Below, piece after piece: positions 23,301 to 63,831 of a stretch of DNA of 64,000 nt (positions are counted from its first letter, which is position 1; every line of letters starts with the position of its first letter). Source of the stretch: Symbiodinium sp. CCMP2592 (lineage: Eukaryota > Sar > Dinophyceae > Suessiales > Symbiodiniaceae); the NCBI GenBank assembly GCA_905221615.1, contig CAJNDT010000146.1, positions 75,001 through 139,000 on the forward strand. Reading direction: 5' to 3'. A model generated the notes under the pieces. It was not told where the DNA came from. It saw only the letters and a program-made list of their open reading frames with translations, and did not search any database. The translations under genes were made by a program, and so were the position numbers.

Positions 23301-24200
23301 GGCCAAAAACTACGGAGTCAGGCAGTCAAAAAGCGTGGCTGGCAGGGGGAGCAGGCTACGAACTTGGAAACGTACATCATACGTATGCGGCGTTGCATCA
23401 AGAACCGTTTCCGTAGTCAGGGTTACCGTGGATCTAATGATAGGTTTTCAGGTATTAGGTGTTAGTTGGGGTTATCTAAGGGGCTTCTGGTTCGGGTTAT
23501 AGCCGAGTCAGAGTTATACCTCACAAGCCATGATTAATCAAAACCCATTAAGATTGGCTTTAGGTTGCGATGTAGGTAGGGCTCCGCAGTTGTCTATTCG
23601 GACCTTCGATGGCACGTGGTCTACTCGCACAGTTTGGGGGGGTTAGCCACGGTTAGCTGTGCAAGTCTCAGGGTAAACCCTACAGCCTGTTCTATCCGCC
23701 ATAAACTCCCATAACGCTGACGTAGCAATCAGCAGCGCGTATCAAATTCTATATACGTATAAAATGTGCCTTAGGGTACGAACAGCACATGTGTATGCCC
23801 CAAACCCGTAAGTTGCAAACCACATACAAGCTCCTCAGGTAGGCCCTATACATTCAAGTTTGGCAGTGCCAAACACCCCTATCAAAATTGCAGCCCGGAC
23901 TGCAACCCTACAGCAAAGCCTTAACCCCCAGGATGTCAACCGCCACTTTGAGCCCTAATCTGGAGCCTTTTACCGAAGGGCCGTGCCAATGCAGTGCCGG
24001 AATTCTTTCTCGAGGTGTGCCGAGTTCGCAAAATATGTTGGGCTTGTCTTCGTATAAGGTGTGTGCTTCAGGCCTTTTCCACGGGTTCATGGCGTTTTGT
24101 GGGGTTTAGGGAGATTTCCGGCGCGCGCAAGGGCGTTCAGAGGGGTCTGCAGGATCTCATGGTCTCAGTGTGATTGTAGAACCCTCGAGAGATGAAGAGG
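20400..24200. other. Spacer with weak exon candidates
   Basis: Mostly telomere-like words and short repeats. Candidate exons on the + strand: about 20955-21032 (LKTLLCGHVHPALEEPL), 21543-21625 (GERPYAEEPPVSFRERRRQ), 21940-22010 (GLRVETLSPENMLSPNP), 22338-22600 (TSRSAYELVRALCRSGHD, then TDVLVCIDVMLCPTRVG in another frame), 23255-23430 (two competing frames) and 23955-24055 (FYRRAVPMQCRNSFSRCAEF). Nothing links them into a recognisable protein. Confidence 0.22.
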
Positions 24201-29979: not shown

Positions 29980-32900
29980 ATGGCTGAGAAGAAAGTCGAC
30001 CCAGCGACCGGCGAGGCGTACACGCTGAAGGAGCTCATGGCACACTACAAGGGGACTTACAAGAAGAAGGAGTTGGAGGAGTACTTCGACAACCATTGCA
30101 AGCCCGTGAAAGTTCGACAGAGCAAGGCAAAGGCGGCCAAGCCAACGAAGGACGCCAAGCCTGAACCCAAGGCGAAGGCCAAGGCGAAGGCGACGGCAAA
30201 AGCAAAGTCCGCCCCATCAAAGCCCAAGGAGGCGCCCAAGGAGGATGCTGAGCCCAAGGGCCTCCGTACCGGCAAGGACGGCGGCGCGTCGGCCCTGGCG
30301 AAGCTCCGCAGCTTCAGCCGCTGCGTCCTCGCCGAGTACGTGTGGCTGGATGCCGATGGCGTCACCCGCTCGAAGACCATGACCATGACTGCCCGACCTC
30401 TCAAAGTCGCAGACCTGAAGGTTTGGAACTACGATGGAAGCAGCACCGGCCAGGCGGATGGGCACAACTCAGAGGTGCTTCTGAAGCCCCGGGCCATTTT
30501 CAACGACCCTTTCCGCGGCTACCCCCATGTCATGGTGCTTGCCGATGCCTGGCAAGCCTGGGACGACAAGCCCGCTAAGAACAACACCCGTGCGACATGT
30601 GCGGAGACTATGGACATGTACAAGTCGCTGGATCCTTGGTTCGGCATCGAGCAGGAGTACACCTTGATGAAGCCAGGACGCGTAGGTGAGAAGGCCAAGA
30701 CACCACTGGGCTTCAACAAGGACGACTCCGAGCCAGCACCCCAGGGCCCCTACTACACCGGTGCGGGCTACAACGTCGCCATCGGCCGCCCCGTGGCAGA
30801 TGAGCACTACAAGATGTGCATGGAGGCCGGCGTCAAGATCTCGGGCATCAACGCTGAGGTCATGCCGGGACAGTGGGAGTTCCAGGTTGGCCCTTGCCGT
30901 GGCATCGAAATGGGCGACCACCTCACCATGTCTCGCTACATCATGCTCCGCGTCACGGAGAAGCACGACTGCGTCTGCTCCTTTGACCCGAAGCCGAAGG
31001 AGGGTGACTGGAACGGCGCAGGCTGCCACACCAACTTCTCCGTGACTCCCATGAGGAGCCCTGGTGGCTACGACACCATCATTAAGGTTTGCGAGGCTTT
31101 CGGCAAGGTCGCCAAGGAGCACATTGCTGAGTATGGTGAGGGCAACGACAAGCGCCTCACCGGAAAGCATGAGACCTGCGACATCAACACCTTCAAGTAT
31201 GGAGTCGCCAACCGCGGCGCTTCCATCCGCATTCCGCGGGATGCTGAGAAGGCCGGCCGTGGCTACATGGAGGATCGTCGACCTGCGGCCAACTGCGACC
31301 CCTACCGCGTCACCAACATCATCATGAAGACGACCGGGGAGTGCCTCAACGCTGAGATCGTGGAGGCCGGGGCGAAGATGCACACGGCCTTCGTGTTCAT
31401 CAAGCCCCATGCCGTCACCGACAAGGTCCAGACGCTGGTGAAGGACAAGCTCACGGAAGGTGGCCTGACCATCAAGAGTGAGGGCGCAATTAAGGCCGAA
31501 GTTATCGACAAGAAGAAGCTCATTGACATCCACTACGGCGCCATCGCGGCCAAGGCGGTCATGAAGAAGCCTTCGGAACTCACCGTGCAGGAGAAGGCGC
31601 AGGCAGAGTTCGAGAAGCAATTCGGCGTCGCTTGGAGCAAGGCGGGAACGCATAAGATCCCAATTTATAGACCCCTCAGCACGTATACCGAGAGCCTTAT
31701 GACCAGAACCCGAGAACATAAGGGAGCTCTTCAAAATGTCAGGTGATGGAAGATGGCCTGGTCTTCAACGCCATGGACGGTGCTAAGAAGCTGGGGATCA
31801 GCCCCGACGAGCTGGGTAAGAAGTACGACGCGCTCAAGAAGGGCGAGACCATCATCAAGTTCGGTGGCGGCTTCTACTGCGGCAAGGTTGACAGCATCTA
31901 TGTCATCAACGGCTTCTACATGAACATGCGCTCCAAGTTCACCGCGCCAGGAACGAGCATCTACTACTACGAGGTGGAGTGGAAATGTGAGCCCTAAGCC
32001 ATCCGAACACTACAAGCCGTCTAGAACCTTAAACAACCCTACGAGGTGGAGTGGCCCGCGGACAAGATGAAGTGGGAGGACTTCCGAGGCAAGTTCCTCG
32101 GGCCTACCGACCCGGCACAAGCCCCTGCCAGCTCCCTGCGCAACCTCATCTACAAGGACCGCAGCCCGAAATCCCAGCAGCCCTGGACTTCAGAAAGCAC
32201 GTGCACCCCAAACCCTGAGCACTGCAAGAATCTATGCAAGCAGGACAGCCCGGAACACTCCAAAACTGAGTTTTTGTCAAATGCCCTCCCCAGAGGGACT
32301 GGCCTAATTAATCCAAAGTGTGAGACTCTATATAACGAATCACCAGGACTGGAGTGATCTCGGACTCAAGGCGCAGCCGGATACCGGTGACAACGGCGTC
32401 CACGCCTCCGCCTCCCCCTTCGAGGCCTTTAGGGTGTACAGTGGTAATTATAGCTATATAGGGCCCATATAGGATAGAGATAGAGGATTTAAAGGGGCTC
32501 AGATTTCTTGTCGATGTCGGTCTTCGGGGGTTCCAACGGGAAACGCTTCCAGGCACTGGCGGAGCGCTGCAACTGGCTCCGGGCCTCCATGACCAAGGAT
32601 CCCTTCGGCAAGGCTCCAAGCAAGGTTTCTAGATTGAGGGTTTAATTAAGGTCTACGGTTCAGAGTTTAAGGTTATGAACTTGTGGGACTTATGACTTAT
32701 GGGCTTAGGATCCCTTCGGCAAGGCTCCAGCAGTCTCCAGTGAAGTTCCGTCTTGATTAAGCTCGTGTGATGGTTAGGGTCCTACAACTAATGTGAAACT
32801 GGTTAACCAAATAGGAGCTGCAGTGGAGACGAGGTTTATTATGGGTTTGTATGGTTTAGACGGGTTCCACTACTTCCGTCAGTGTGTCTGCCTATTTATC

Positions 32901-33000
32901 TGTATACCTACCTGTCATCTGCATGTGTGTAGTGCACCGTACATAAAGAAATAAGTGCAACATCAAATACCAAATTAAGTGAACCAATGTTGTCCCTTTA

Positions 33001-33056
<56 letters not shown>

Positions 33057-34304
33057 AATATATCTCTCTCTCCGAATATATGTATTGTTGTTTGTACATG
33101 TGCATTTTTATCTGTATGTATAAGTATAGAGTATAGATATAGATGTATAACCTCATGTATGCTTGCATGGATGGATTGGTGGATGTATGTATGCACGCAT
33201 GCTTGCATTTACCCGTGTTTTTACATATAAGTAGATACGTGTATGTATGTATATACATATATATATATATATATATATGACATATATGTATATAAAAATA
33301 TAGATATAAAGATACATGCATACATACAGGCATACAGACACACATGCATAACTATACATACACAAGCACGCAGACATACCTGTTATATAGGTTCGCGTTT
33401 TAAAAAGGTGTTTTGTGTGTAACTTGAGGTGATATGTCTATGTGTGTTCTTTAGCTTAGGGTCTAGAGATTTCGGGTTAGGTTGGGTGGAGAGCTTTCCC
33501 TCCCCGGCAAGGCGCTGCTGGCCAGCGGCCTCACCCCCGGCATGGCGAAGAAATGGTTCGAGGAGCCCTAAACCCTAAACTTTCGATAAAACCCAGACCC
33601 TTTAGAAACCCTAAAGCCTTGAGCCATAAACCCTAACCCGCTACTAAACCCTTAAAGCCCTGAACCCTAAGAAGTGGTACGAGGACCCGGCTTTGGAGTT
33701 CGAGGGAGGCAAGAAGTCCGTCTTTGACATGCTGGAGGATACCAGGGCTTCCTGAAAGGGCGCGAGTTCTAAGTTCGGGCTTTGCGGTTTAGGTGTAGGG
33801 TTTGGTGGCACCTCAGTCTCTGCTGAAAAAGGGTTTGGTGAGTTTTTCTGAAAGCGTGACGTGAAGACGTTCCTTTGTATATAAACGAGGTGCCATGCTG
33901 CAGTGCGTTAGGTTAGTATAGGCTTTGTAGGGAGTGTCTATAGAGGGATCTTCGCTTTAAATGTTGGAGCTTGTGTGCATAGAAGAACGTAGAGGATTTG
34001 TATGCCTACGGGAACTATCAGGTTTAGGGCTTTGCGAATGTTGAGGGGAGAAATTTAGGGCTGCATCGGCTGCAGCACTGAACATTTAGGGTTTCAAGCC
34101 CAGCTAGGCTGTAACTACATGAAGTTAAAGAAGTTAGATAACGGGTTCTAGGACTCTGAATTTGAGGGCTTCAGAGCATCATTGGGGTCCCACAAAGGAT
34201 CTGTCAAAGAAGCTTACAGGGGCTTAGGGTTCAAAATGCTGGAGGATCTGGATGCCGGTGACTGCCTGAAGAAGTGCAAGGCCATCGCCGCAGCCAACAA
34301 GTGA
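29980..34304 (+). CDS. GLUL: Glutamine synthetase fused to nucleoside diphosphate kinase
   Basis: Exons 29980-31641, 31743-31973, 32046-32156, 32347-32424, 32553-32612, 33512-33562, 33684-33737 and 34245-34304 splice in phase 0 to 768 residues. Residues 1-45 are a small helical module (YTLKELMAHYKGTYKKKELE) and 46-100 a Lys/Ala/Pro-rich linker. Residues about 105-460 are a complete eukaryotic-type glutamine synthetase (ATP + glutamate + ammonia to glutamine), with WNYDGSSTGQA, GIEQEYTL, MPGQWEFQVGP, WNGAGCHTNFS and NRGASIRIPRD. From 467 an NDP-kinase fold follows: FVFIKPHAV, HYGAIAAKA, GPTDPAQAPASSLR and NGVHASASPFEA with the likely phospho-histidine His687. An NDP kinase could recharge the ADP made by the synthetase; that coupling is inference. 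No targeting peptide is seen, so it is probably cytosolic. Intron donors are GC, GT, GA, GC, GC, GA and GA, all with AG|G acceptors. Several introns lie between long direct repeats. Confidence 0.85.
31642..31742 (+). other. Intron 1 of the glutamine synthetase-NDPK gene
   Basis: 101 nt with donor CAAG|GCGGGA and acceptor GTCAG|GTGATG. Removal joins GVAWSK to VMEDGLVFNAMDG, inside the NDPK region. Unspliced, the frame runs on to a TGA at 31744, so retention would give a 588-residue protein with a broken kinase domain. Confidence 0.7.
31967..32054 (+). repeat. Intron 2 between 16-bp direct repeats
   Basis: CTACGAGGTGGAGTGG occurs at 31967-31982 and again at 32039-32054. The 72-nt intron 31974-32045 starts GTGGAG and ends TACGAG, so the AG|GT junction sits inside both copies and YEVEW is encoded on either side. 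The intron interior has CCCTAAG and CCTTAAAC words of telomere-like type. Confidence 0.8.
32596..32729 (+). repeat. 23-bp direct repeat with optional microexon
   Basis: The 23-bp word starting AGGATCCCTTCGGCAAGG is at 32596-32618 and exactly repeated at 32707-32729. Splicing can run 32598-32708 (GA-AG), then use a 15-nt exon 32709-32723 (DPFGK) before a GC donor. Alternatively it can skip the second copy by using the GC donor at 32613. Both give the same protein. Confidence 0.75.
32613..33511 (+). other. Long intron with CT and AT microsatellites
   Basis: Intron of 899 nt in the simplest model (GC donor after GGCAAG, acceptor CCCCGGCAAG|GCG), with CGGCAAGGC at both ends. It holds an almost pure CT run at 33001-33054, a repeated CTCTCTCCGAATATAT word and an AT run near 33258-33279. 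No gene is seen inside. Confidence 0.65.
33546..33743 (+). repeat. Intron with imperfect 20-bp exon duplication and telomere-like filling
   Basis: AAGAAATGGTTCGAGGAGCC (33549-33568) and AAGAAGTGGTACGAGGACCC (33670-33689) match at 17 of 20 positions and flank the 121-nt intron 33563-33683. The intron (GA donor, CGAG|GAC acceptor) begins GAGCCCTAAACCCTAAAC and ends AACCCTAAG, so much of it is CCCTAAA-type sequence. Confidence 0.75.
33726..34250 (+). repeat. Last intron between 12-bp direct repeats
   Basis: ATGCTGGAGGAT lies at 33729-33740 and 34236-34247. The 507-nt intron 33738-34244 has a GA donor and a GGAG|GAT acceptor inside these copies. Its interior has decayed GGTTTAGGG words. Confidence 0.75.
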
Positions 34305-56500: not shown

Positions 56501-59500
56501 AGCCTGCCCTGCGAGCTACGAGGCCCACCGGCCCACGTACCCCTGAAGCCCGAAGGTCTCTTTCGCAAACAGCCTCTAAGACTGGTATAGTAGCCCGGAT
56601 GATTAAGAGCACTATCCATTGGGAACTGTTGCTACAGTGTAAATATGGACAGACAAAAGTCCAGACCCCGAGTACAAGGTTCCGAGTCTGCTTATAGTCC
56701 TTGGAATGGGCAACCATCCCGTGAAGGCTGCATCAAGCAGCCTTGACGCTCAAAAAGCAACCAGCCAAAGTCGCTGCAACAATCGTCCCAGTGCCAGCGC
56801 TGCAAAGGGTGCTTTTGCCACCAGCACCATAGTCTGGCTGCTTCTGCACTTGCCCTCCCTGCAAGTCTGGCTATGAAGATGGCCGTCACCCTGTATGGTG
56901 CACGCTGATGCGCTCAGCTGCAGCCAACACGGCCCACTCTCGGTCGTATCTTCCTGCGCGCTCGATTCACCGCCACACGTGGTCGGATGAGTCGGTGAAC
57001 CATGCACCACCACCCCTTTCGAAGAGATGGTGCTGAGACGACGGTGTGACGATGGTGCTGATGAGGATACTGATGGAGGTAGCCGCATAGCAACTACAAA
57101 AAATCAAATCACGTCAGCAGCGGCAACGAGGACAATAGCAACATGAAAACATCATGCTGACAAGGGGCATCACCAACAGGAACAAATGCGCTTCAAAGTG
57201 TGATACATCCGAAGGCAGGCAGCCATATGTCTAAGGTCCAGAAGGCGTACACGTGAGTGATACACACCGTAAAACTTCATCAAGCAAGCCAGCCTTGGTC
57301 CCTTAGAGGTCCAGAAGGATGCCTTCGACGAGTGGTTTAAGCCTGAGTTGGCTGCCGATGGCTACGACGGCCTGTTCCAACAGTCTCGGGGCTGTCGAAC
57401 TTGGAGGGTTACGGAATCAGGTCTTGAGGTTTACGGGTGAGGGCTTAGTGGCTTGGGGTTTTGTTGTGGTTTTTGGAGTTGGGAATTGGAGTTCACAGCT
57501 AGAAGGGGTTGACAGAAAGGGCTTGATGCTGTTTATAAGGGTTTGCTTTGGAAGTTTGAGTTTTAAGTAGCGGAGCCAACACACCTCAAACAAAGAGATA
57601 TATTGTGTTTTGGTCATATGTTTTTTTACCAGGCGCACTGCTTCCTCTATAGTGTTCAGGCGTTGGGGGTTCAGGGTCAAGGTTGAGGGGTTTAGGGTTT
57701 GAGGGTTGTTTGTCTTGGGGTTTAAGGTCGAGGCCGAGGGTTCGAAGGTTTGTTCTTGGTGCAAGGTTTACAGTTTACACCTAGCCGGGGAATTCTCTTG
57801 TGAGTGTGGGCTTTTGGGCTGTTGTGACTGTGGGCTTTTGGGGCTTGGGACGGTTCAGCGAAGGGTGCACTGAATTGCCGCAGTATGAAACCTGTGATTG
57901 ATTTTTACAGGCTTATGGCCGTGTGTTGGTCCGAAGAACTTTATCAGCCCTTGACCCGAAAGCCGCAAAGGTCTTGATAGAAGCCAAATGTACAAACCCG
58001 ATCCCGGCCACCTTAAACCCAAACCTGAAGACCCCCAAGCTTTAAAACCACAGCCTTATACCCCACGCCCCAAAACCGCTTACGACATAAACCTGTAAGT
58101 CCTTTGAAGCCTGCACCCTTTAAAGTGCGAACCAAAGAAGTTCAAGGAATCCTTGTAGATCCCTTAAAGCCACCCAAGGAAGAAAACCCTCAACCCCTTA
58201 GAGCTCTTTACAGTCTAATGCAAGGAAGAAGCTATAGATCCCTGACAAAGAGCCCTAAATGGAACCAAATATAGATCCTCGAAGCCCTTCTGAAACCTTT
58301 GAAAGTCCGAACTCAGAGCCCTTAGGCCTTAAGGGAACCAATTACAGATCCTGGAAGCCCTCTTGAAACATGTACATAGAAGTTCGAACCCAGAACCCCT
58401 CAGGGAAGCATTGTAGATCCCTTGAAAAAGCCATGTTGAAACCTTTACACTCCGAGCCCAGGAAGAAGCGAGATCCGATCTTCCACCGTGGAAAGCCTCC
58501 TGGGCAGCATCTGAGGTTCTGGCTTTAGTGCGGGGGCCCCTTTAAGAGCAGGATCTGGCTTAGGGGGCCCGCTTTCTTGGAAAAATGTGGGCTCGCGTCA
58601 AGGGCTTCACGGCGATCTTATGCGGGTTCTGTCGGTTTCAGGGTTACGGTTTCTGTCGCCTTCACTGATCACGGGTTTCGGCTTGTGCGGCTTCAGCTTA
58701 AATGGGACGTTCGGGTTGCGCTGTTTGGAGTTTCGGCGTTGAGATGCAAGGTGAATGCGCAACTCTGGATCCCAGGGCGGCCCCAGCGATTCACAAGATG
58801 CCAGCCCCATGCCTGTGCCACCCTGATCATTCGGCCGGCCACCTAGAACCCTCAATAAACCCTTATCGCTGGACCACTGCAAACCCCACCAAGCAGCAGC
58901 GGTGTAGCTGTTAGGGTGTCGAAGGGAGTAGGGTGCTCAGCTGTGCAATTACAGTACGGGAAGCAGGGTTTTGAGTTTCTGGTAGGCTTCCAATCCGGCT
59001 CAGAAAGTGGTGTTCCTGGGTTTCTGTGCTTTATATGTCGCGGGCTTCTCCAAGCAGCAGTAGGGGTCGGCCTCACAGTTCGCACATACAACATATTATA
59101 CGGGAGTCTCCGAAAACTAGGGGTGCCTTCTTTTGGGGTCCTTATAATAAGAGTCCTACAAGTTGGGGTACTGTATCAGGGTCCCCCCATTTTCGGAAAC
59201 TCCCGTATAGTAGAACAAGCCACAAGCCCCCGTTGCAATTCCTATAAGCAAGCAAACACCCAGGTACACCAGCGAGGGCTGTGCGACGTGTCTTAGCTCC
59301 AACAGGCTTAGACTGAACCCTGAGACGCAAATATTCTTATAGCCATGCCCACCCCCCAGTCAAAAGCAGCACATTAGATTCTGGATCCCATGAGCCCCTA
59401 CTTGAGTATTTGGCCCCTGTAGAAGAGATTGAGCATCTTGGTGGGAACTGGGAACTTGGGTATGGGTTTGCAACTAGTTTTCGTGGTTTCAGGTGGGATT

Positions 59501-61480: not shown

Positions 61481-62133
61481 GCAGCAGCAGCAGCAGCAGC
61501 AGCAACACCGCCACCGCTACGACCACCACCCGCTGCCACGCGACTACCACTAAAGCAGCACCACTGCCACGACCACTGACACAACCACCGCCACCACCAG
61601 CACCACCAGCAGCAACAGCAGGAGCAGCACCACCACCACGACTACTATAGAAGCCGATACGACGGTCTTACCACAACTGTCAGTAAGAAACTAGTACTGG
61701 TATTACTCCGGATAGTAGTAACACGGAACAGTTGTAATGGTTGTAGTTGAAGTTGTAGTAGTAGTTGTTGTTGCTGCTGCTGTTGCTGTTGAAGTTGCTG
61801 TTGCTTGTGTGGTTGTGGTTGTGGTTGTGGTCGTGGTCTGTGGTTTGTGGTTTGTGGTTTGTGGTCTGTGGTCTGTGGTCTGTGGTTGGTTGGTTGGTTG
61901 GTTGGTCGGTTGGTCGGTTGGTCGGTTGGTCGGTTGGTCGGTTGGTCGGTTGGTCGGTTGGTCGGGTGGTCGGGTGGTCGGGTGGTCGGGTGGTCGGGTG
62001 GTCGGGTGGTCGGGTGGTCGGGTGGTCGGGTGGTCGGGTGGTCGGGTGGTCGGGTGGTCGGGTGGTCGGGTGGTCGGGTGGTCGGGTGGTCGTTGTTGTC
62101 GGTGTTGTTGTTGTTGTTGTTGTCGGTGGCAGT
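61481..62133. repeat. Chain of microsatellites with stepwise changing unit
   Basis: AGC units (61481-61503) and ACC-rich sequence (about 61560-61640) are followed by GTT/GCT (61741-61800), GTGGTT, then GTGGTTT and GTGGTCT (to about 61883). Next come GGTT (61884-61905), the 8-mer GGTTGGTC (to about 61960) and the 8-mer GGTCGGGT (to about 62090). GTT units end the chain at about 62133. Each unit differs from the next by one substitution or insertion. Confidence 0.85.
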
Positions 62134-62264
62134 GCTTGGTGGCTGGCAAGTAGATGCTGCTGTACATGTCGTAGCAGTACCACGTTGTGGCAGTGTAGGG
62201 CCTACAGGGGTAGTGCATGTAGCAACAGCAGCAATAGGTGCTATGGCTGTTACAAGAGACCCCA

Positions 62265-63831
62265 GAAGACAGCAAGGATCGGCAAATACTCGAAGAAGGC
62301 CGACTGCTTCGACCAGACAGACCTGAGAAGGCATGCAGCCCATGTCGCGTCCTGGATCACCTACGGCGAGCCGGACCAAATTCCGACAATGGACGAGATC
62401 AAACTCTTGAAAAAGTTCATTGACAAGATGGATGGTGGGCGTCTGCCTCGTCGACTGAGAGATGTGTTATCGGACATGCAATCCGTGCTCCAGTCTCTCC
62501 CGAAGCCTGCCCATGAGGCTTGGAATAAGGCGGAAAGGCAGCTGCAAAAGAGCCTTCGAAAGTTGCACCGGCGCGGTAATGAGTTAGTGGAAGACGCAGT
62601 GGTGGTCGCTACACATGATGACTTCCCCAAGGCAGAACGCAAGGCCGATAAGCATGATTTCCTGCAAGTAACTGAAACGGATGATTTGGCCCCGGCATCT
62701 CCTGGTACATCTGCCATCGCTGACCAACACTTGAGACTATTCAGGAAGAGGAATGAATGGAGCTTTCTGGATGACTCTCAGAAGCTGGAGCGCTTGAAGC
62801 AGGCCGAAGAGGCAGCACGGCGTCCACGGAGCAGCCTCAGCCAAGCAGAGCTGACAGACATCATCAACACTGCCGCAGCTTGCCTCGCAGCTCCTCACAG
62901 ACAAGCGAAGACACGAGATGATGATGTTGCTGCCTGCGAAGACGCCGGAACTGCTTCGGAATCGGAGGGTCCGAAAACGGCTCTACAGAAACGCGCACGG
63001 TCGTTGCTGCTGGTGGCCCTCCGTGTATGGCGGCTGAACCAGTTCGATTGTCATACCATCCAGCATGTCCTGGAATTTCTGCAAGAGAAGATCAAGAAAT
63101 TTGAGGACAATGTTGGACAGATTCAAGACGCTGCTGCCGGGAAGGCTTGGATCAAAATCAAACAGGCTGTCGATGTACTAATGCCTGGCGCAACGGCGCC
63201 GTCGAGCTCCGAAGCACAAGGTGCAGAGGCCCAAGCTCAAGCTGTTCGTGACCACAAGCCTTACAAAGCCGGAGTAAGATTGGAGCGCCAGAGCGGCATC
63301 CAGAACATCAGCTGGAGTGTGGTGGGTGCGGCATGGGAGTGCCGAGAGTACTCGAGAAAGGGCACAGGATGGAAAGCCAAAACTCGCACGTTTAAAATTA
63401 GCAAGTTCCTCGAGCAGGGGCTTGACAATGAGGCGGCCGTCGAGGCCGCACTGCAAGAAGCAAAGGCCTATCGCGAGGAGCTCGTTCGCCAGGGCAAGTT
63501 GAAGCCCCCGAAGCCGCGACCCCCACGCTCAACGGTCAGGGGCGTCACCTTTGACATAAGCAAGAAGAAGTGGCTGGTGCGGCTCTACCATCCTCTGCAC
63601 AAGAAGCATGTGCACATTGGCGTTTTCCGTGCTCAGGAGGAGGCCGAAGCCAAGGCCCGGGATACAGCTAAGCAGTTCGGGATTCGATCCGAATACGAGG
63701 TGCTGCAGGTGAAGAACAGTTCAGGGCGCGGAATGTCGAGGCTCAGGAGTGGCTCGCCCAACGCCGCATCGGAGCCCAAGAAAAGGCTTTCAGTGTTTAA
63801 GGGCTCTAGGTTTGGGGGACAGGGCTTATAG
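62265..63831 (+). CDS. AP2-like domain protein, dinoflagellate type
   Basis: The frame gives about 522 residues to a TAA or TAG-type stop at 63831. The usable start is unclear: the frame stays open upstream through the microsatellite, so coding probably begins after an acceptor near 62259-62270 (CCCCAG or GACAG). Residues 1-250 are helical and charged (DEIKLLKKFIDKMDGGRLP, LERLKQAEEAARRPRSSLSQ). A Trp/Arg-rich domain follows at about 63262-63500 (GVRLERQSGIQNISWSVVG, then TFKISKFLEQGLDNEAAVEA). A second copy at 63535-63690 (RGVTFDISKKKWLVRLYH, then HIGVFRAQEEAEAKARDTAK) has the three-strand-plus-helix pattern of AP2/integrase-type DNA-binding domains. A DNA-binding role is inferred. The tail after about 63740 turns into GGGCTTAGGTTTGGG-like spacer words, so the true 3' end may be a donor near 63770. 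Confidence 0.65.

Follow-up and report, generated by a model that had tools for sequence, protein, structure and literature searches.

The 64,000-nt stretch of contig CAJNDT010000146.1 of the dinoflagellate Symbiodinium sp. CCMP2592 that was analyzed here (positions 75,001 to 139,000, hereafter the window) carries a glutamine synthetase-NDPK-like gene, in which long direct repeats of exon sequence lie at intron junctions. For two of its seven introns, I2 and the older, degenerate I6, the simplest account of the sequence is insertion into intron-free coding DNA with a duplication of 16 to ~21 bp, and a further insert, I5a, appears from its sequence to have duplicated 23 nt across the existing donor of I5. 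The bodies of all three resemble telomere repeats. We suggest that the young introns could be staggered breaks repaired with telomere repeats, the AG|G within the duplicated word giving the splice sites; we put the probability of this reading at roughly 0.4.

Structure of the window gene

Junctions were placed from the reading frame and from the alignment with a paralogue on contig C1746 (the parent, described below), and on these two grounds the introns are taken to be spliced. Their removal in silico gives one 2307-nt open frame and a single 768-residue protein, with GT-AG, GC-AG or GA-AG borders; donors of all three types, GT, GC and GA, are reported to be in use in dinoflagellates (PMC11453091). 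The first 1661 coding nt contain no intron. The N-terminal part of the protein is a glutamine synthetase (Pfam Gln-synt_C and Gln-synt_N), and the later part has a weak NDPK likeness, its NDK score of 23.8 bits lying below the family cut-off of 27. The gene and its features, all on the plus strand, are as follows.

29980..34304, plus strand: glutamine synthetase-NDPK-like gene, from start to stop codon; 8 exons with 2307 coding nt (open frame and Pfam)
31642..31742, plus strand: intron I1, GC-AG; no long repeat (2+1); away from parent intron positions
31974..32045, plus strand: intron I2, GT-AG, 72 nt; framed by a 16-bp exact repeat; at a parent intron position; also in a gene fragment on contig C4168
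31967..31982, plus strand: I2 repeat, first copy, 7 nt of exon and 9 nt of intron
32039..32054, plus strand: I2 repeat, second copy, 7 nt of intron and 9 nt of exon
32157..32346, plus strand: intron I3, GA-AG; position shared with a parent intron; free of long repeats
32425..32552, plus strand: intron I4, GC-AG; position shared with a parent intron; free of long repeats
32613..33511, plus strand: intron I5, GC-AG; position shared with a parent intron, the 5' ends of the two showing borderline similarity
32596..32618, plus strand: 23-bp repeat, first copy, across the I5 donor (17 nt of exon and 6 nt of intron)
32707..32729, plus strand: 23-bp repeat, second copy, within I5, 111 nt downstream
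32619..32706, plus strand: insert I5a, 88 nt between the 23-bp copies; TTTAGGG-like, coverage 0.53
33563..33683, plus strand: intron I6, GA-AG; degenerate repeat of ~21 bp at 33548/33669 (17/21); body CCCTAAA-like with a coverage of 0.85
33738..34244, plus strand: intron I7, GA-AG; 12-bp repeat; 5' end homologous to the parent intron at coding position 2247

Elsewhere in the genome, an intronless open frame of 1158 residues (C5245:236276-239587) encodes four tandem NDPK-like units that are 54-57% identical to the C-terminal part of the window protein.

Repeats at the intron junctions

A sequence-only reading of the window had claimed that exact repeats containing AG|G bracket successive introns of this gene. 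The 16-bp CTACGAGGTGGAGTGG (31967/32039), the 23-bp AGGATCCCTTCGGCAAGGCTCCA (32596/32707) and the 12-bp ATGCTGGAGGAT (33729/34236) are present as it described, AG|G lies inside each pair, and the 9-bp word CGGCAAGGC stands at both ends of I5 (32606 and 33505), with a further copy at 32717. The pair at 33549/33670, given as matching at 17 of 20 positions, is a genuine degenerate repeat with 16/20 matches from that start and 17/21 from 33548. Bracketing applies to four of the seven introns (I2, I5, I6 and I7), I1, I3 and I4 being without repeats. The 23-bp copies are not placed at opposite ends of an intron: the pair straddles the I5 donor, and its second copy lies 111 bases downstream inside I5.

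To gauge chance, the donor of one intron was set against the acceptor of another in 1056 pairings drawn from 26 introns of the parent and 7 of the window, and the longest run obtained was 11. The own junction runs of I1 to I7 are 3, 16, 5, 4, 9, 6 and 12. The run of I2 is clearly beyond chance; that of I7 is marginal, just beyond the null maximum, with 2 of the 1056 pairings as good by identity over 21 flanking positions; and the 9-bp end pair of I5 is within chance. The degenerate I6 pair was matched or beaten by 13 of the 1056 pairings. For the 23-bp pair, the copy of the exon-end word within I5 scores 19, a value reached by 1 of 2862 cross pairings. The contention that exact repeats of 16 and 23 bp are not expected by chance is borne out, since both exceed their nulls (cross pairings of donors and acceptors; exon-end word), and the comparison with shuffled controls proposed by the same reading also favors it, with 58 pairs of at least 12 bp in 214,630 bases as against 4-11 after shuffling. 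The repeats of I2 and I5a are perfect, and that of I6 has decayed.

Within the window, six exact pairs of at least 12 bp that are neither simple nor telomeric are spaced 40-600 bases apart. Three lie in the glutamine synthetase-NDPK-like gene, one is at 57234/57307, and two more begin at 24065 and 58153. An origin of the inserts as tandemly duplicated exon pieces was rejected: in a comparison limited to the joined 50-nt exon word, the longest match in I2 is the 9-nt repeat itself and that in I6 is 5 nt.

Inherited introns and probable gains

The paralogue on C1746 (68001-106000; loci L056, L057, L009 and L010) is 90.7% identical over aligned coding bases, with 72 of 194 fourfold sites differing, and the comparison marks the window gene as a processed copy of this very intron-rich gene. 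The parent has 47 well-placed introns out of 48 called, the one at coding position 66 being left out of the counts because its AG acceptor is missing. Of these, 34 fall within the first 1661 coding nt, and the window copy has none of them. Five of the seven window introns occupy parent positions (coding positions 1893, 2004, 2082, 2142 and 2247) and two lie elsewhere (1662 and 2193). An overlap of at least five among AG|G sites has a chance probability of P = 0.117, so a shared position is no proof of shared origin and needs no special cause; for the same reason, shared positions were rejected as proof of intron regain.

Exact junction repeats in the 47 parent introns are at most 7 nt long, and none of the paralogue's junctions carries a second copy of the I2 or I6 word. 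The sequence-only reading had held that the same introns without repeats in a relative would speak against it, and the parent partly presents this picture: as an empty-site comparison it is without the second copies and yet has introns at five of the seven positions, with runs there of only 3-4 nt.

Sequence similarity between the introns was scored against a yardstick of parent-parent pairs, for which the 99% point of the 5'-end score is 12.4 and the maximum 21.5. The first 63 nt of I7 align with the parent intron at the same site with a score of 17.5 (rank 1 of 26). Its acceptor word resembles the parent's by eye, and its 3'-end score is no higher than for other introns. I7 is taken to be inherited, so its 12-bp repeat would be no birthmark of the intron. 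The 5' end of I5 scores 12.0 against its counterpart (rank 2, borderline), and I5 may be inherited too. The bodies and ends of I2, I3 and I4 match their parent counterparts no better than they match other parent introns. Inheritance of all five shared introns by sequence was rejected, I7 alone being clear and I5 borderline.

The I2 repeat consists of 7 nt of the upstream exon and 9 nt of the downstream exon, i.e., the joined exon-exon word. Because these parts are adjacent only without the intron, I2 was inserted into spliced sequence. I6 lies at no parent intron position, the nearest parent intron being 7 nt away. The fragment on C4168 shares I1 and I2, its I2 repeat comprising 15 exact nt and one mismatch; since I2 is shared, it predates that duplication. 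The idea that introns were born here with long target duplications is thus supported for I2 and I6 (joined exon word, no second copy in the parent) and not supported for I7, which is inherited, for I5, which possibly is, and for the repeat-free I1, I3 and I4.

Telomere-like filler

In Fugacium kawagutii, and reportedly in other dinoflagellates, telomeres consist of TTTAGGG repeats (PMC11453091). Rotations of this word top the 7-mer list of 124 kb sampled here, N runs and ATATATA aside. With one mismatch allowed per 7-mer, background coverage in 4-kb blocks of the window is 0.06-0.14 for the TTTAGGG type and 0.04-0.11 for the CCCTAAA type. The bodies of I2, I5a and I6 reach 0.50, 0.53 and 0.85, respectively, on one strand only in each, and inserts in parent introns reach 0.94 (intron 297) and 0.70 and 0.84 (two inserts of intron 1272). 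Telomeric repeats at internal sites are therefore present, strong in I6 and in parent introns 297 and 1272 and at about half coverage in I2 and I5a.

In 3000 draws of random noncoding segments of equal length, the share at least as telomere-like was 0.057 for I2, 0.033 for I5a and 0.003 for I6, and, in the parent, 0.025 and 0.004 for the two inserts of intron 1272 and 0.004 for that of 297. The repeat-free introns are ordinary in this respect (I1 0.53, I3 0.50, I4 0.31), and the share for I7 is 3.1%. Of the seven repeat-framed inserts measured in window and parent (32-103 nt), six are telomere-like, each of those on one strand only.

The insert of parent intron 297 is a CCCTAAA x4 tract between two exact 20-nt copies across the acceptor. 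Serial acceptor copies, the working one included, number four in parent intron 955 and three in 1272, with CCCTAAA-type filler between them. Apparent joined-exon copies in intron 1272 were dropped as candidates, the left part being explained by common filler. Repeats of at least 9 nt flank 4 of 86 telomere-like segments in general, and two of those four are the parent inserts.

Polarity of telomere words in parent introns

Along the parent introns (47), coverage of the TTTAGGG type drops from 0.17 in the first fifth to 0.04 in the last, and that of the CCCTAAA type climbs from 0.08 to 0.26. The polarity TTTAGGG-5'/CCCTAAA-3' is seen in 36 introns and the reverse in 8, with 3 tied (Wilcoxon 5e-5). 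Exact telomeric 7-mers were also counted in up to 150 nt per intron end, giving 6863 nt on each side. The 5' ends hold 106 TTTAGGG and 61 CCCTAAA words (dinucleotide shuffle means 14 and 8), and the 3' ends 8 and 290 (means 3 and 26). The sum of 5' sense and 3' antisense words is 396 for the telomere word, compared with a maximum of 41 among 19 other words that share its composition. The TTTAGGG-type 5' and CCCTAAA-type 3' ends of parent introns form a loose inverted arrangement; I2, I5a and I6 are single-stranded in type.

Parent intron 741 (C1746 80512-80987), whose position is shared with a glutamine synthetase paralogue on C1851 (L058), has a 3' end that repeats, but for one base, the end of the exon upstream (GGGCTTCAACAG). 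Either loss and regain or aborted cDNA-templated repair might explain this repeat.

Telomere repeats at spliced-leader relicts

A search of the genome (1.098 Gb, 5383 contigs) for the dinoflagellate spliced-leader sequence with at most one mismatch returned 318 forward and 318 reverse sites, and the backward control returned 0. The 60 nt upstream of 30 spliced-leader relicts (L015-L044) contain 122 CCCTAAA-type 7-mers, found at 11 of the 30 loci, and 1 of TTTAGGG type; the 60 nt downstream of the same relicts contain zero telomeric 7-mers. Genome-wide, CCCTAAA occurs within 20 nt upstream of exact leader sites at 71 sites and TTTAGGG at 11 (binomial 7e-12), counted after collapsing to distinct sites (97 rows to 71 and, by eye, 13 rows to 11). 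At 35 of the 71 CCCTAAA sites a perfect repeat reaches the leader. Such a pattern is expected if repeats were added to the first cDNA strand at its 3' end.

A second spliced-leader relict in series (CCATTTTGGCTCAAG repeated), a sign of repeated retroposition, was seen at L016, L018, L020, L025, L037, L043 and L044. The window gene has no established relict at its own 5' end, 35 of 500 shuffles being equally good. The protein of L023, considered as a second retrogene-parent pair, gave one match only.

Proposed mechanism

We hypothesize that a staggered break would produce 3' overhangs with the same word on both sides and that telomerase, or a telomerase-like enzyme, would add TTTAGGG-type repeats to one or both 3' ends. 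Once filled in and rejoined, the ends would read exon-word-(TTTAGGG)n and/or (CCCTAAA)m-word-exon. If the word contains AG|G, its left copy could act as donor (GT, GC or GA) and its right copy as acceptor; with both splice sites supplied by the duplicated word, the mRNA would be unchanged, so the insert would survive as an intron. Repeated rounds at one junction would lengthen the intron. The same capping of free 3' ends would place CCCTAAA repeats directly against the 5' ends of retroposed cDNAs. We infer the enzyme, the break, the order of events and splicing itself, as well as the nature of the inserts as break-repair scars.

A wider version, in which free 3' ends (gene breaks and reverse-transcribed mRNA ends alike) are generally capped with TTTAGGG and rejoined, so that exon breaks become introns with long AG|G words and head-to-head telomere tracts, is doubtful, and the generality of telomere-repeat intron gain is unproven. 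Some of the simple inverted repeats described as introners at intron ends of other dinoflagellates (PMC10666404) could be the same thing. In the titles and abstract openings of the literature searched, no proposal of telomere-repeat addition as an intron source was found.

How new spliceosomal introns arise has long been asked, and introns are very abundant in dinoflagellates. If true, the proposal links intron gain to break repair and telomerase instead of to transposons and gives retrogenes an additional reason for containing introns besides unspliced templates. Its signature, same-strand telomere repeats at the ends of introns and at the 5' ends of retrogenes together with long duplicated words, would be countable in every dinoflagellate genome.

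Weighing the proposal against alternatives

Several observations weigh against repair with telomere repeats. The repeats of I2 and I5a are perfect and their filler degenerate, so the filler must already have been impure at insertion. The added repeats of parent intron 297 are, by eye, out of perfect register with the end, and the insert at 57246-57306, between the 12-bp copies noted above, is not telomere-like (share 0.56). Polarity and serial acceptor copies come from one parent gene. In 11 HSP70 introns, those left after blocks with gaps over 3 residues or without a candidate junction were dropped, no repeat at the best-placed junctions is longer than 5 nt, and exact telomere words number 0 or 1 in four of the five HSP70 loci and 11 in the fifth. 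The glutamine synthetase paralogue on C1851 tells the same: its 15 introns (of 16, a gap at coding position 442 having no AG acceptor) show junction repeats no longer than 6 nt, and their ends hold 2 telomere words. A crude test of coding-segment flanks elsewhere gave, downstream of exons at the stricter threshold, a count of 9 for the TTTAGGG type against 23 for the CCCTAAA type, opposite to the model. Genome-wide, TGCAGG follows TTTAGGGTTTAGGG 4484 times and CCCTAAACCCTAAA 2537 times; such orientation counts speak against a simple genome-wide polarity but, since TGCAGG is itself telomere-like, are confounded; they lend the model no help. Finally, the confinement of all seven introns to the 3' part of the gene (0 of 52 AGG sites versus 7 of 17, Fisher 1.8e-5) is not chance, and intron gain leaves it unexplained.

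The alternative that fares best concerns the polarity. Near acceptors, CTAAAC is usable as a branch site and as a C-rich tract, and runs of G help donors. Telomere-word polarity may then reflect selection for splicing rather than a birthmark, the C-rich stretch before spliced-leader relicts likewise serving trans-splicing. Enrichment is indeed strongest at 3' ends, with the 290 words counted there, and GC skew is +0.14 at 5' ends and -0.17 at 3' ends. Against this, exact telomeric words are about 7.5 times (5' sense) and 11 times (3' antisense) as frequent as in dinucleotide shuffles, and far above the 19 other words of the same composition. Moreover, the HSP70 and C1851 introns, as placed here, manage without telomere words, and at many sites the repeats touch the first base of the leader. 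Selection for splicing could produce part of the polarity; as the whole explanation we regard it as somewhat improbable.

It is also conceivable, if rather unlikely, that ready-made DNA was inserted, either a non-autonomous transposon (introner) or a captured telomere-like piece of the genome, with duplication of a long target word. Telomere-like segments are common, 86 in the sequence scanned, so any captured filler can be telomere-like. The inserts are degenerate, as existing genomic copies are, and the I6 body can be aligned with telomere-like parts of parent introns, one match reaching 74% over ~100 nt. Introners have been described in dinoflagellates, those of Symbiodinium microadriaticum having duplications of 4 bp (PMC9860276). 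Against this, duplications are described as 3-9 bp in characterized introner families and as 3-5 nt in Amoebophrya (PMC9860276, PMC7789003), and those of I2 (16 bp), I6 (~21 bp, degenerate) and I5a (23 bp) exceed that range; the sequence-only reading was right that their length is unusual for introners. A whole-genome DNA search with the 2.6-kb region 31642-34250 matched the C4168 fragment, C1746 coding exons, that single I6 match and many microsatellites, and no family of intron bodies among the 40 scored of 1445 candidates, which is weak evidence as common words were skipped. Nor does insertion of ready-made DNA predict one-strand purity, polarity or abutment to cDNA ends.

About equally unlikely, in our view, is retention of introns from an incompletely spliced pre-mRNA at retroposition, in which case chance, or aborted repair with spliced cDNA as its template, would have produced the repeats afterwards. 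A template spliced incompletely would account for the 3' confinement of inherited introns, the homology of the I7 5' end is as expected, and five of seven introns sit at parent positions, an overlap with a chance probability of P = 0.117. Retrogenes with introns have been described in dinoflagellates (PMC6050394), and parent intron 741 has an end repeat although it is old, as its position common to C1851 indicates. I2 and I6 are the difficulty, for they require a spliced state: their repeat contains both exons, and I6 has no parent position. I2, like I3 and I4, also matches its parent counterpart no better than other parent introns.

That the repeats are chance or assembly artifacts is very improbable and, for I2 and I5a, largely refuted: the 9-bp repeat, and perhaps the 12-bp one too, is close to the chance level, but the 16- and 23-bp pairs stand above their nulls, and the I2 repeat recurs on the independent contig C4168.

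Other features of the window and the parent contig

The 12-bp pair outside the glutamine synthetase-NDPK-like gene is a duplicated acceptor word at an exon of another gene, with an insert between its copies.

57234..57245, plus strand: 12-bp word AGGTCCAGAAGG, first copy, ahead of the exon
57307..57318, plus strand: 12-bp word AGGTCCAGAAGG, second copy, 73 nt on, at the start of coding exon KDAFDEWFKPELAADGYDGLFQ

By eye, exon KDAFDEWFKPELAADGYDGLFQ resembles a CCR4/nocturnin-type nuclease; alone it has no Pfam match. At 61645-62379 (minus strand) a tandem repeat reads PPDHPTTR / NRPTDQPT in one frame, and beside it a 526-residue open frame (62251-63831, plus strand) has no Pfam match at E 0.001. 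Tandem arrays of class II fructose-bisphosphate aldolase were seen at C1746:105045-111513 and C5204:287790-292157, one of them ~3 kb downstream of the parent gene.

Comparison with known systems

Repeats of 4-30 bp near the borders of 213 introns have been interpreted as insertion scars (PMC11782384). As that study presents them, they have a similarity of 71-100% and were searched within 80-bp stretches around each border, with no telomere-like filler, paralogue or empty-site evidence in the part consulted.

Short interstitial telomeric sequences of mammals are described as inserted at double-strand breaks during repair (PMC2246262, PMC7215372). The inserts reported here are like them in being internal telomeric repeats, and the mammalian ones sometimes have a target duplication and once head-to-head tracts; they would set a precedent for repair of this kind. 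Only a minority of the mammalian loci have duplications: 6/130 rodent and 4/25 primate loci, and 3/66 in the 2020 table plus 2 complex cases (PMC2246262, PMC7215372). According to the same reports, as far as consulted, no human interstitial telomeric sequence lies in an exon, and the making of introns is not shown for the mammalian ones.

Terminal inverted repeats are given for 72 of 177 introner families (PMC9860276). The window inserts resemble introners, as described, in that new introns arise by insertion with direct repeats able to supply splice sites; they differ from those repeated families, often with terminal inverted repeats, in their long duplications and in the lack of a family among the scored candidates.

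Mendez et al. 2015 are said to have found identically repeated intron boundaries in a Crypthecodinium cohnii tandem array, the word of 2-9 bp occurring once in the mRNA. As in that array, donor and acceptor of the window introns repeat the same word; here, the words are 16 and 23 bp long, the filler is telomere-like, and the gene has the history of a processed copy.

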